DNA of 64,000 bases. Origin: Flavobacterium antarcticum DSM 19726. Lineage in GTDB: Bacteria > Bacteroidota > Bacteroidia > Flavobacteriales > Flavobacteriaceae. The stretch lies in the NCBI RefSeq assembly GCF_000419685.1, contig NZ_ATTM01000001.1, positions 1-64,000 on the forward strand, read 5' to 3'. The notes under the pieces were generated by a model that had not been told where the DNA came from, searched no databases, and saw nothing but the letters and a program-made list of their open reading frames with translations. The position numbers were made by a program, and so were the translations under genes. Positions 8,277 through 49,940 of this stretch are shown one piece after another. Each line of letters opens with the position of its first letter. Positions within the stretch are counted from its first letter, which is position 1.

Positions 8277-8361
8277 GGAGCTAATCCGGCTGTACACTAT
8301 ATCTTTTTTTAAATTTTCGCTTCGCAAAATCTAAAAAAAGGATGCCGTTTCCATCCGGGCT
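8277..8361 (+). repeat. Flavobacterial structured hairpin repeat, copy 1
   Basis: The intergenic segment between the crotonase and PPTase genes forms a long hairpin. CTTTTTTTA (303-311 of the 8-kb block) pairs with TAAAAAAAG (8332-8340), continuing through ATTTT/AAAAT to a CG-CTT-CG tip. The flanks are conserved, GC-richer blocks (CTAATCCGGCTGTACACTAT to the left, GATGCCGTTTCCATCCGGGC to the right). Copies 2 and 3 in this window (20344-20436 reverse, 28684-28755) share the ATCTTTT...AAAAGGAT core and similar flanks. Confidence 0.75.
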
Positions 8362-8378
8362 AAAAAAAACACTATCGC

Positions 8379-20343: not shown

Positions 20344-20436
20344 CCGAATAACCCTGACGTGGGTGACTATCCTTTTATTTTATTTTATGAAAATAAAAGA
20401 TAGTGCCGGACGGCAGGAAAATGGAGGCCAAATATG
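20344..20436 (-). repeat. Flavobacterial structured hairpin repeat, copy 2 (reverse)
   Basis: Read on the minus strand, CTTTTATTTT and AAAATAAAAG (20399-20390 and 20381-20372) form the stem, extended by ACTAT/ATAGT with one bulged base. The flanks (CCTGCCGTCCGGCACTATC before, GGATAGTCACCCACG after) resemble copies 1 and 3. It lies between the divergent kinase and flavin reductase genes. Confidence 0.7.
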
Positions 20437-28559: not shown

Positions 28560-28683
28560 TAGCAATAAAAGATAATTTTACAGATGCTGATTTTTAAGGT
28601 ATCTTTTTTAAAATGAACACGGTACGAATTACTTCCTCATTTCCAAATTCACCTTTTTTTAAATCTTTTTTGGGCAATCCGAA

Positions 28684-28755
28684 AACGGCCGGGCTATCCG
28701 TTACTAATCTTTTTATTTTTAAAGAAAAAATAAAAAGGATTTCCACTGCTATCCC
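28684..28755 (+). repeat. Flavobacterial structured hairpin repeat, copy 3
   Basis: CTTTTTATTTTT (28709-28720) pairs with AAAAATAAAAAG (28726-28737) as a perfect 12-bp stem, with flanks CCGGGCTATCCGTTACTAAT and GATTTCCACTGCTATCCC. It lies between the divergent rplM and LacI-family genes and shares its core with copies 1 and 2. Confidence 0.75.
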
Positions 28756-28876
28756 TATTGCGAATTGGTACAACTCACAAATTTACGGTCAATTTTTTTT
28801 ATATCGAATTTTCATTTGAATTTGTATTAAGGTTGATTTCAATAGTTTTTCTACATTTACATTTCAATAATTCATC

Positions 28877-45152: not shown

Positions 45153-45181
45153 TTTGATTTATAAAAAAATCACTATATTTG
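45153..45181 (+). promoter_or_regulatory. Promoter of rimP-nusA-infB
   Basis: TTTG (45153-45156), 17 bases, then TATATTTG (45174-45181). Transcription should begin near 45187, about 57 bases before the rimP start, with the leader hairpin in between. Confidence 0.8.
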
Positions 45182-45209
45182 CACCGTTATTTATTTAAAA
45201 GTTAATAAT

Positions 45210-45235
45210 GAGGGAAGCAGTGCTTCCCTCTTTTT
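45210..45235 (+). terminator. Terminator-like hairpin in the rimP-nusA-infB leader
   Basis: GAGGGAAGC (45210-45218) pairs perfectly with GCTTCCCTC (45222-45230) around AGT and is followed by five T, so it has every property of an intrinsic terminator. It lies between the promoter and rimP, 8 bases before the start codon, so it is either an attenuator or a leader element that also limits ribosome access. Confidence 0.75.
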
Positions 45236-45243
45236 ATAAAATT

Positions 45244-45711
45244 ATGACATTCAAAGAAAAAGTATTAAATTTATTAAATGAAGGATTAGAAGATAAACCT
45301 TCGATCTTTCTGATTGATGTAACCATTACGGATGCAAACAAAATTATCGTAACTTTGGATGGTGATAATGGAGTGCAATTGCAGGACTGCATTGATGTGA
45401 GTCGTTCAATTGATCAAAACTTAGACAGAGAAGAACAAGACTTTTCATTAGAAGTAGCTTCCGTTGGAGTGGGTTCGCCATTAAAGATGGTTCGCCAATA
45501 TATAAAAAATGTGGGTAGGATGTTAATTGTAAAATTACAAGATGGCACCACTATTGAGGCTAAATTAGAAGAAGCAAACCAAGAGCAAATTGTTCTTTCA
45601 TGGGAAGCTCGGGAGCCGAAAAAAATAGGAAAAGGAAAGGAAACTGTTCAAAAAAGACAGGAAATTCCTTATAATGAGATTAAAGAAGCAATCGTTACAA
45701 TAATATTTTAA
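45244..45711 (+). CDS. rimP: Ribosome maturation factor RimP
   Basis: A 155-aa RimP, needed for late 30S maturation around S12. The start is set at 45244 ([16 protein letters not shown]), because a frame opening at 45208 would have to translate the leader hairpin. The family block [33 protein letters not shown] is present, as is the C-terminal Sm-like part. Three bases separate it from nusA, the usual order rimP-nusA-infB. Confidence 0.95.
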
Positions 45712-45714
45712 TAT

Positions 45715-46959
45715 ATGGAGAATATAGCATTAATCGAATCATTTTCAGAGTTTAAAGACGACAAACTCATTGATCGTGTAACGCTTATGGCAATTTTAGA
45801 AGATGTATTTAGAAATGCATTGAAAAAGAAATTTGGTTCTGATGATAATTTTGACATTATCATTAATCCAGATAAAGGAGATATGGAAATTTGGCAGCGA
45901 CGTGTAATTGTTGCAGATGACGATTTGGATTTAGATCACCTTGAAATTACCTTGACTGACGCTAGAAAAATAGAGCCTGATTTCGAAATTGGCGAAGAAG
46001 TTTCTGAAGAAGTAAAATTGATTGATTTAGGAAGAAGAGCGATTTTGGCTTTACGCCAAAACTTAATTTCTAAAATTCATGAGCATGATAACACCAATCT
46101 TTACAAGCAATTTAAAGATTTAATTGGTGAAATTTATACGGCGGAAGTACACCACGTACGTCCAAGAGTTGTAATATTAGTGGATGATGAAGGAAATGAA
46201 ATCGTTCTTCCAAAAGAAAAACAAATTCCATCTGACTTTTTCCGTAAAGGAGATAACGTTCGTGGAATCATTGAAAATGTGGAATTAAAAGGTAACAAAC
46301 CTCAAATTATTATGTCTAGAACTTCTGAGAAGTTTTTAGAGAAATTGTTTGAACAAGAAATTCCTGAGGTTTTTGACGGCTTGATTATGGTTAAAAACGT
46401 AGTTAGAATTCCAGGTGAAAAAGCAAAAGTAGCAGTAGATTCTTATGACGACCGTATTGATCCAGTTGGAGCATGTGTGGGAATGAAAGGATCTAGAATT
46501 CACGGAATTGTACGTGAATTAGGAAACGAAAATATCGACGTAATTAATTATACAACAAATACACAGTTGTATATTACAAGAGCGTTAAGTCCTGCAAAAG
46601 TTTCTTCAATCAAAATTGATGAAGAAAATAAACGTGCTGAAGTGTTCTTGAAGCTTGAAGAAGTTTCAAAAGCAATTGGCCGTGGTGGACACAACATAAA
46701 ATTAGCGGGACAATTGACCGGTTACGAACTTGATGTTATCAGAGAAGGTAACGTAGCCGAAGAAGAAGACGATGTAGAGTTGACAGAGTTTTCGGATGAA
46801 ATTGAAGCGTGGGTAATTGAAGAATTTGCTAAAATCGGTTTAGATACCGCAAGAAGCATCTTGAAGCAAGATGTAAATGATTTAGTAAGAAGAACGGATC
46901 TTGAAGAAGAAACCATTCTTGATGTAATGAAAATATTGAACGATGAGTTCAATAGCTAA
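45715..46959 (+). CDS. nusA: Transcription termination/antitermination factor NusA
   Basis: A 414-aa NusA with the N-terminal RNA polymerase-binding domain (about 1-125), an S1 domain (about 130-200), and two KH domains (about 200-345, with ACVGMKGSRIHGIVRELG and KAIGRGGHNIKLAGQL). A short acidic and helical end follows. The C-terminal acidic repeats of the E. coli protein are missing, which is normal for the phylum. NusA slows or stabilises paused polymerase at hairpins. That makes the terminator-like hairpin in front of its own operon a natural candidate for feedback control. Confidence 0.97.
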   Translation: MENIALIESFSEFKDDKLIDRVTLMAILEDVFRNALKKKFGSDDNFDIIINPDKGDMEIWQRRVIVADDDLDLDHLEITLTDARKIEPDFEIGEEVSEEVKLIDLGRRAILALRQNLISKIHEHDNTNLYKQFKDLIGEIYTAEVHHVRPRVVILVDDEGNEIVLPKEKQIPSDFFRKGDNVRGIIENVELKGNKPQIIMSRTSEKFLEKLFEQEIPEVFDGLIMVKNVVRIPGEKAKVAVDSYDDRIDPVGACVGMKGSRIHGIVRELGNENIDVINYTTNTQLYITRALSPAKVSSIKIDEENKRAEVFLKLEEVSKAIGRGGHNIKLAGQLTGYELDVIREGNVAEEEDDVELTEFSDEIEAWVIEEFAKIGLDTARSILKQDVNDLVRRTDLEEETILDVMKILNDEFNS

Positions 46960-47012: not shown

Positions 47013-49940
47013 ATGTCTGAAGAGAGAGTAATAAGAATTAATAAGGTTTTAAGGGAATTTAATATTTCGTTAGAAAGAGCGGTTGATTATCTTAAGGATA
47101 AAGGCATTGCTATTGATGCAAATCCAAACGCCAAAATTTCTGATGCGGAATTTAATATCCTGCAAAATCAATTTGCTGGCGACAAGGGGAAAAAAGAAGC
47201 TTCACTAGAAGTGAGTGAAGAAAAGCGAAAAGAAAAAGAAGCTTTGCGATTGGAGCGCGAAAAAGAAATTGAAGACAAACGCAAGCTGGACGAGGAGCGT
47301 CAAAAGCAACAAGAAGTCATCAGAGCTAAAGCGAATGTAGTAGGTTTGAAAAAAGTGGGTTCCATCGATCTTAATCCTAAAAAGTCGGTTCCAGTTACTC
47401 CTCCAGTTGAAAAAGCTGTTGAGAAACAACCTGAGGTTGTTGCTCCAGTTGCTGCGGTTGAAAAACCAAAGGCAGAAGCTGTTGTAGAAAAAGCAGAAGT
47501 TAAAAAGGAAGAGAAAACTGAAAAAGCGCCAAAACAAGAAGCTCCTAAAGCTGAAAAGCCAAAAGTGGAAGCTCCTAAAGTGGCGACTCCAAAAGCTGAA
47601 GTGCCACAAGTGCCTAAGGCGGAAGCAGAGAAAGCTGGTGAAGTTGCTGCAGTTAAAGAAACTACGGTTGCATCAGTGAAGACTGCAGAAGGTGAAGCTA
47701 CTGTTGATGATGAACCAGTTGCTACAAAATATGTGCAACTTTCAGGAACTACTTTTACAGGTAAAACAATTGACTTGTCTCAATTTGACAAACCTAAAAA
47801 GAAAAAGGAAGAGCCAAAAATCACGCCTAATAAACCAGGTTCTGCTGCTGCAAACGCTGCTGCAAATAAAAACAAACGCAAGAGAATCCCAACTAAACCA
47901 GGAACGGTACGTCCTCCAGGAAGTGGACCAAATCCCAATAAGATTGTTCCAAATGCACCAGGTTCTGTAAATCGTAGTGCTCGACCAGGTTTTGTTAAAG
48001 GAAACCGTCCTGCAATTGTTGCGAAAGTTGAGCCAACAGAAGAAGAAGTTAAGAATCAAATTCGCGAGACTTTAGAGAAGCTACAAGGAAAAGGTGGTAA
48101 ATCTAAAGCTGCGAAATACAGAAGAGATAAGAGAGATACGCACCGTCAGAAATCAGATGATGAGCAACGAGCGATTGATGAAGGAAGTAAAACTATTAAA
48201 GTTACTGAGTTCGTTACCGTTGGTGAAATTGCAATTATGATGGATGTGCCAATTACTAAAGTAATCGGAACCTGTATGTCACTAGGAATCATGGTAACTA
48301 TGAACCAGCGTCTTGATGCAGAAACATTGACAATTGTAGCTGATGAATTTGGATACGAAGTTGAGTTTATTACAACTGAACTTGAAGAAGGTTTAGAGGT
48401 AGTTGCTGATGCGGAAGAAGATCTAAGAGGTAGAGCTCCTATTGTTACGGTAATGGGTCACGTGGATCACGGTAAAACATCTTTACTGGATTACATTAGA
48501 AAGGAAAATGTAATTGCTGGAGAATCAGGTGGAATTACACAGCACATTGGTGCTTATGGAGTAACACTTGACAACGGGCAAAAAATAGCATTTTTAGATA
48601 CACCAGGTCACGAGGCTTTTACAGCAATGAGAGCGCGTGGAGCACAAGTTACCGACATCGCCATTATCGTTGTTGCAGCGGATGATGATATCATGCCTAC
48701 AACTAAAGAAGCAATCAGTCATGCTCAAGCAGCTGGAGTGCCAATTATCTTTGCAATTAATAAAATTGATAAGCCTAACTCTAATCCAGAAAAGATTAAA
48801 GAACGTTTAGCAGGTATGAATTTACTTGTTGAAGATTGGGGAGGTAAAATTCAGTCGCATGATATTTCTGCGAAAGTAGGAACAGGTGTAAAAGAATTAT
48901 TAGAAAAAGTATTGCTTGAAGCAGAGATTTTAGAGCTTAAAGCGAATCCAAATAGATTGTCTACAGGAACTGTAGTTGAAGCATTCTTAGATAAAGGTAA
49001 AGGTTACGTTTCAACTATTTTAGTTCAAAACGGAACATTAAATGTCGGAGATTACATGTTGGCTGGAAAACACCACGGTAAGATCAAAGCCATGCATGAT
49101 GAACGTGGAAACGTAATTATGAGTGCTGGACCATCAACACCTGTATCAGTATTGGGATTAGATGGAGCGGCAACTGCTGGAGATAAATTTACAGTATACA
49201 ACGAAGAGCGCGAAGCGAAACAAATTGCTGCAAAACGTACACAGTTGATGCGTGAGCAATCTGTTAGAACACAACGACACATTACTCTTGCGGAAATTGG
49301 AAGACGTATTGCGTTAGGTCAATTTAAAGAATTGAATATTATCTTGAAAGGTGACGTTGATGGTTCTGTGGAAGCATTGTCTGATTCGTTCTCGAAACTT
49401 TCAACGGAGGAAATTCAAATCAACATTATTCATAAGGGAGTTGGTGCAATTACAGAAACGGACGTAATGTTGGCTTCTGCATCAGATGCAATTATCATTG
49501 GATTTAATGTTCGTCCTGCTGGAAATGCAAGACAATTAGCAGACAAGGAAGAAATTGACATCCGTAACTACTCAATTATTTACGATGCAATTGATGAATT
49601 GAAAGATGCCATGGAAGGTATGTTGTCTCCAGAGATGAAGGAAGAGATTACGGGTACTGCTGAAATTAGAGAGATTTTCAAAATATCGAAAGTGGGATCT
49701 ATTGCAGGATGTATGGTAACGGATGGTAAAATATTCCGCTCTGCAAAAATGCGTTTAATACGTGATGGTGTAGTTATTCACACAGGTGAATTGATCGCAT
49801 TGAAGCGTTTTAAAGACGATGTGAAAGAGGTTGCTAAAGGTTATGATTGTGGTATCCAAATTAAAGGATACAATGATATCGAGCAAAATGATATTATTGA
49901 ATCATTCCAAGAAGTGGCAGTTAAGAAAAAATTGAAGTAG
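47013..49940 (+). CDS. infB: Translation initiation factor IF-2
   Basis: A 975-aa IF-2. An IF2N-type domain (about 1-55) is followed by a long low-complexity region (about 60-370) rich in Lys, Glu, Ala and Pro. The GTPase core begins near 475, with G1 GHVDHGKTS (482-490), G3 DTPGHEAF and G4 NKIDKPN, and then come domains II-IV for initiator-tRNA binding. The long N-terminal spacer is expected to be disordered and is usual in flavobacteria. Last gene of the operon, with its own terminator. Confidence 0.97.

Follow-up and report, generated by a model that had tools for sequence, protein, structure and literature searches.

Why should an RNA polymerase that sets out to transcribe an operon for NusA and IF2 meet a terminator-like hairpin before the first start codon? 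The rimP-nusA-infB operon of Flavobacterium antarcticum DSM 19726 raises this question. In the window, that is, the whole stretch of 64,000 nucleotides analysed here (NZ_ATTM01000001.1, positions 1 to 64,000), promoter, AU-rich stretch, hairpin, TTTTT, ATA and rimP-nusA-infB follow one another on the + strand. The parts are as follows.

45153..45181, + strand: promoter of the Bacteroidota type (TAnnTTTG), as read in the sequence, with TTTG at 45153-45156, a 17-nt spacer and the -7 box TATATTTG at 45174-45181
45186..45209, + strand: short, AU-rich 5′ segment of the leader, with TTATT and TAATAATGAGG conserved in the genus alignment
45208..45210, + strand: upstream in-frame ATG, probably not the rimP start, its frame being kept in just 31 of 58 Flavobacterium leaders
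45210..45230, + strand: terminator-like hairpin of 9 bp, composed of GAGGGAAGC (45210-45218), the loop AGT (45219-45221) and GCTTCCCTC (45222-45230)
45231..45238, + strand: short U-tract UUUUU-AUA, with TTTTT at 45231-45235 and ATA at 45236-45238, identical in all 51 distinct Flavobacterium leaders
45244..45711, + strand: rimP, 155 aa, with Pfam RimP_N above the cut-off and the RimP C-terminal domain (E 1e-4) under the cut-off
45715..46959, + strand: nusA, 414 aa, with Pfam NusA_N and KH_5
47013..49940, + strand: infB (IF2), recognised by eye from gene order and sequence in the ORF list

All nine pairs of the hairpin are perfect, six of them being G-C, and 8 bases separate the end of the T-run from the rimP ATG (45244). 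These values agree with the original prediction, which had placed a perfect 9-bp hairpin and five T between promoter and rimP, 8 bases before the ATG. Transcription would start near 45186-45190, and the RNA 3′ end is predicted at the U-tract (45231..45238). The rimP frame is open up to the ATG at 45208, from which ORF callers give a 167-aa RimP spanning the hairpin. We rejected this start: of 58 Flavobacterium leaders, 31 have the upstream ATG in frame with rimP, 26 have it in another frame and 1 lacks it. Because its frame is not kept across Flavobacterium, the rimP start most likely lies at 45244. The nearest named relative of the RimP of the window is that of Flavobacterium tegetincola (90%), and the divergent gene upstream of rimP looks, by eye, like one for a universal stress protein. 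Counted from the putative start, the RNA before the stem measures ~20 nt in the genus (the stem begins at a median of 28 nt past the -7 box), and is therefore too short for a riboswitch or an antiterminator. No C-rich stretch able to pair with the G-rich arm was found in 45186..45209, and a riboswitch, a T-box and a leader peptide were each discarded for want of room in these ~20 nt.

In the explanation that we favour (probability roughly 0.7), the hairpin acts as an intrinsic terminator that ends transcription prematurely within a leader of ~50 nt, and NusA most likely promotes termination there, resulting in autogenous attenuation. Polymerase would start ~20 nt before the stem and make the hairpin and the short, interrupted U-tract; it would then either stop near 45235-45238, releasing an RNA of ~50 nt, or read through into rimP-nusA-infB. 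NusA, itself a product of the operon, would most likely help the hairpin to form and the polymerase to pause at this suboptimal terminator. Stopping would then increase with the amount of NusA, which amounts to an autogenous loop without aptamer or antiterminator. We infer that termination takes place in the cell and is incomplete, with NusA determining how efficient it is.

An attenuator in the nusA-operon leader of B. subtilis was reportedly described by Mondal et al. in 2016. In the accessible text of PMC12288461, NusA-stimulated termination in the leader of its own operon is reported for this bacterium; the element is likewise an intrinsic terminator in a 5′ leader, NusA control being reported there and presumed here. 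For S. agalactiae, the excerpted PMC4448216 describes a short RNA that ends 31 nt past the start of the same operon (gbs0413-gbs0418) and suggests NusA feedback. Operon and leader terminator are shared with our case, whereas the 3′ end is mapped there and predicted here. Feedback in E. coli is cited in excerpts of both PMC2965389 and PMC4448216. The former (Naville and Gautheret, 2010), as far as its available passages go, calls the rimP-leader the most ubiquitous predicted transcription attenuator and proposes NusA as its controller. The general form given in these passages resembles the present element in its G-rich 5′ arm, C-rich 3′ arm, T-stretch and position before rimP-nusA-infB, and is, as here, devoid of aptamer and antiterminator. 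It is placed 4-130 nt from the gene start, a range that includes the T-run of the window at 8 nt from the ATG. The stem motif of the same passages is GGGc(...)gCCC; the window has GGG(aagc)...(gctt)CCC, with no c beside GGG. The main text of PMC2965389, as distinct from its supplements, contains no words starting with Bacteroid- or Flavobacteri-. The gammaproteobacterial Rfam family RF01770 (rimP) shares the operon and a last hairpin with T-run before rimP, but models a longer leader of 102 positions. Membership of the window was rejected, as no match was obtained at E values up to 10, while the positive control, E. coli K-12, scored 102 bits. Other Rfam families were rejected as well, the best match being STnc290 (28.9 bits vs a cut-off of 60), an sRNA that binds Hfq and has a similar terminator. 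Elsewhere, the window contains three copies of the Flavo-1 RNA motif, which has no assigned function, at 8279-8365 (-), 20346-20424 (+) and 28683-28766 (-). According to the passages of PMC9723704 at hand, F. psychrophilum has a structured 5′ element upstream of rimP that is transcribed, conserved in other Flavobacteriaceae genera and without Rfam hit. Genus and place are the same as here, but these passages list the element without structure, range or mechanism; it is very probably the present hairpin. The accessible part of PMC7815308 states that an E. coli rimP 5′UTR fusion fell in a Rho mutant, which has no bearing on the present hairpin. No other Bacteroidota account of a NusA-operon attenuator was found in a literature search that covered main texts, largely of freely accessible papers.

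To define the range of the element, we read loci from 60 relatives and 31 named loci, plus a selection from 296 genomes of the order and 148 of the phylum. RimP was present in 223 of the 296 and 147 of the 148, part of which were read, mostly one to few per genus. A hairpin scoring at least 16 within 110 nt before rimP was present in 149 of 154 distinct Bacteroidota leaders; the same score was reached by 4 of 306 control windows lying further upstream and by 8 of 154 leaders after shuffling. By level, the counts were 58/58 for the genus and 24/25, 27/30, 19/19 and 21/22 for the rest of the family, order, class and phylum, respectively. This set leaves out L061 (partial match) and L062 (duplicate); L084, L087 and 20 other fetched loci were scored later, and 21 of these 22, duplicates not removed, likewise reached 16. 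The original prediction would have been contradicted by a lack of the hairpin in related genomes, and both sets speak for its conservation. The five leaders below 16 comprise four weaker hairpins (L135, L136, L145, L198) and one hairpin more than 110 nt away (L126). L116 reaches the threshold through a chance hairpin, the true one lying further upstream, and in leader L168 no hairpin was found. In one family of the order (f5, perhaps Weeksellaceae, as a guess), five of the seven leaders read (L135, L136, L145, L146, L089) share another conserved hairpin, based on GGCCTTCG(G/C)AAGAA and followed by a T-run, which replaces GAGGGGAC/GTCCCCTC; the remaining two, L147 and L148, have yet other hairpins.

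Covariation between the stem arms, suggested at the outset as a check on related leaders, was strongly positive both within the genus (51 leaders) and beyond it (61 leaders). The stem base GAGG/CCTC is nearly constant over the 51 distinct Flavobacterium leaders and the upper stem changes on both arms together, while the tail TTTTTATA is present in all 51. Of the 453 stem cells, 97.8% are paired. Double-change cells numbered 61 vs 18.3 in shuffles, and the covariation score was 0.390 vs 0.135 for shuffled alignments and at most 0.198 for slid versions. In two of the five measures the real alignment did not stand out from the shuffles: double-change pairs (186 of 500 shuffles as high) and further pair types (470 of 500). 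The reason is the small number of stem forms. Across 61 hairpins from beyond the genus (9 loci excluded, as well as L139, L096, L186 and L188), 93.9% of the cells are paired and double changes occur in seven of eight pairs (22 cells vs 4.5 shuffled); here, all five measures lay above all 500 shuffles. Same-strand nusA lies downstream at 60 of the 61 loci of the genus set, duplicates counted, the exception (L051) ending within rimP. Three Flavobacterium-like rimP loci (L041, L045, L057) stem from metagenome-assembled records titled Sphingobacterium, Bifidobacterium and Limnohabitans, and these are probably wrong bins or labels.

The stem itself takes a small number of forms. In Flavobacterium these are GGGAAGC, GGGGAC (20 of 58 leaders) and GGCACGC, the last of which has no GGG (15 of 58). 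On a tree of 50 loci computed from RimP and NusA, parsimony calls for no fewer than 10 changes among the three main forms, two leaders with other stems standing outside this count; the tree was built by a quick method, has 15 weak branches among its 47 inner ones, and excludes L051, L061, L062 and duplicate leaders. Few intermediates (L015, L036, L044) accompany this switching among three fixed sequences in L001-L059. Repeated switching suggests convergence or an exchange of leader DNA between species. Outside the genus, GGGGAC/GTCCCC is the commonest stem, with 41 of 74 Bacteroidia leaders (family 18/25, order 15/30, class 8/19) and 0 of 22 leaders from other classes. The notion that GGGGAC..GTCCCC is merely a frequent word was rejected, as its 51 sites in 42 of 118 Flavobacteriales genomes fall at rimP in 40 cases, before nusA in 1 and elsewhere in 10, by assignment by eye against gene coordinates (G152 was checked separately). 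The reversed control pattern has 50 sites in the same 118 genomes, as summed from the table.

Genomes that lack rimP allowed us to separate the element from this gene. Seventy-four genomes gave no RimP_N match (73 from the order, 1 from the phylum). We inspected 15 of them and dropped G121, where NusA gave no match, and G092, which a contig end interrupts; 13 readable nusA leaders remained. Absence of RimP rests here on the RimP_N search and on the gap before nusA; a search of the 13 genomes for the RimP C-terminal domain gave nothing above the cut-off, 7 of them having weak matches (best E 0.008), and the RimP of the window also falls below this cut-off, so that this search carries little weight. 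Among the eight rimP-less genomes of 1.3 to 3.5 Mb, seven have a hairpin before nusA with scores of 17.5 to 22.0, a level reached by 2 of 17 background windows further up in the rimP-less set. From the end of these seven hairpins to nusA there are 20 to 147 nt, too few to accommodate rimP, and six of the seven leaders have a TAnnTTTG box 10 to 32 nt before the stem. The eighth genome, L237, scored 14.0 and shows, by eye, a 4-bp GGGC..GCCC stem followed by six T. In five rimP-less genomes of 0.3-0.6 Mb (L236, L238-L241), no G+C-rich hairpin was found before nusA, only A+T hairpins with scores of 11.9 to 16.0 and 0 or 1 G-C pair. Four of these five small assemblies begin exactly at nusA. Directly before the nusA leader of five other rimP-less genomes (L224, L228, L231, L233, L234), we observed a tRNA-like sequence, apparently tRNA-Gln by eye. 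Since the hairpin is kept before nusA in seven of the eight larger genomes, the element does not depend on RimP; it goes with nusA-infB.

NusA is most likely the controller by analogy, because the element follows nusA-infB and because of the precedents from B. subtilis, E. coli and S. agalactiae and the proposal for the rimP-leader. The present data do not separate NusA from NusG, IF2 or another factor. We nevertheless regard it as unlikely that the leader terminator answers to NusG, RimP, IF2 or S1 instead of NusA, or lowers expression by a fixed fraction. Conservation of the stem sequence could mean a specific RNA-binding protein and, in the available text of PMC8060035, distal U-tract interruptions mark NusA-dependent terminators and are found in NusG-dependent ones too. 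Against such controllers, the control reported for B. subtilis in the accessible part of PMC12288461 is by NusA, and RimP is an unlikely sensor given the hairpins that persist before nusA in its absence.

The view of the hairpin as a terminator relies on its anatomy. Its energy of -14.5 kcal/mol compares with a mean of -12.8 (range -7.9 to -20.4) for the genome's own 3′ hits, 48 counted strand-wise in 35 convergent intergenic regions in ~464 kb of the same genome. Ten other places in the genome have the arrangement GAGG..CCTC+T5: six sit 6 to 133 nt behind a gene, four of these between convergent genes, while two of the remaining four lie within ORFs and two far from a gene end. The interrupted U-tract UUUUUAUA is present in 51 of 51 Flavobacterium leaders. 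T-runs of at most 5 occur in 57 of 61 leaders from beyond the genus vs 19 of 48 of the genome's own 3′ hits, with leaders and hits counted slightly differently and the fixed column used in leaders understating rows with longer stems; many leaders of other classes have longer T-runs. A distal interruption of the U-tract fits a suboptimal, NusA-dependent terminator, but the feature is not specific, 19 of the 48 ordinary 3′ hits being equally short. With a U-tract close behind the stem, a variable distance to the start and an energy like that of 3′ terminators, the anatomy is that of a terminator rather than of a fold of the initiation region. A post-transcriptional role, in which the hairpin protects the 5′ end or the start region, or adjusts access of the ribosome, the U-run being of use only for AU-rich initiation, appears improbable. 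The stem does end close to the ATG (median 13 nt in the genus), and Shine-Dalgarno sequences are said, in the literature seen in part, to be absent in Flavobacterium. However, across the phylum the spacing between stem and start codon takes values of 10 to 81 nt, and before nusA in one rimP-less genome it is as much as 147 nt, the U-tract remaining next to the stem throughout. Structured leaders are also rare in this genome: among divergently transcribed genes in ~464 kb, 1 of 96 leaders has a comparable hairpin, the ORF rule of this survey having put the rimP start at 45208 and thereby hidden rimP's own hairpin. The preference of the original prediction for attenuation over cover of the ribosome site or 5′ stabilisation is thus supported by the constant U-tract, the variable start distance and the 3′-terminator anatomy. 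The single positive leader of the survey (L213:934-2238 (-), genome C1 about 600934-602238) belongs to a PLP enzyme gene of Cys/Met metabolism and has a strong terminator hairpin ahead of the start; it gave no Rfam match above the cut-off and is possibly another attenuator or the result of a wrong gene start.

A terminator of an upstream or antisense transcript, with its place before rimP being incidental, is hardly credible. Terminators are often found between genes, but in the window the gene upstream points away from rimP, and no U-tract comes after the stem when the reverse strand is read. Moreover, 131 of 132 Bacteroidia leaders (genus 57/58, family 25/25, order 30/30, class 19/19) and 8 of 22 leaders of other classes have a promoter-like TAnnTTTG box ahead of the stem, at median distances of 28, 28, 23, 21 and 12 nt for genus, family, order, class and other classes, respectively. 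Folding of 45188-45290 gave -19.5 kcal/mol vs a mean of -12.5 for shuffled sequences (z -2.55; 4 of 200 shuffles as stable). A motif search of the genome with up to 3 mismatches returned one place only, and a covariance-model search gave 99 bits here vs 29 for the next best, the window itself being in the model by construction; a repeated element was rejected on the basis of this single copy. Weak terminator-like sites are common (11 vs 6.9 expected in 12 kb), but a chance hairpin is refuted by covariation and phylum-wide recurrence, and its likelihood is practically nil.

The conservation of the stem sequence exceeds the need of a bare terminator and counts against a plain reading of this kind. 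Because GGGGAC/GTCCCC recurs in 41 of 74 leaders and the Flavobacterium stem flips about ten times among three fixed forms, both arms together, we tentatively consider, as a possibility and not as our expectation, that the stem is a sequence-specific sensing site. NusA or a partner might recognise either the stem or the hairpin-bound polymerase and tolerate few solutions, which would make the element a compact NusA sensor of ~50 nt that is phylum-wide, kept on loss of rimP and dropped in endosymbiont-sized genomes.

Autogenous attenuation by a leader terminator is a kind of control already known. What is new is its range across the phylum, together with the frequent GGGGAC/GTCCCC stem, the brevity of the U-tract and the test by rimP loss. 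The rimP-leader attenuator is extended to a phylum with unusual promoters and translation without Shine-Dalgarno sequences. What the leader senses can be examined simply, by comparing rimP-less genomes; seven of the eight larger ones speak for NusA (or IF2), and not RimP, being the regulated product. The natural stem forms represent a ready-made mutant series. If control by NusA holds true, this autogenous loop would be common to Firmicutes, Gammaproteobacteria and Bacteroidota.
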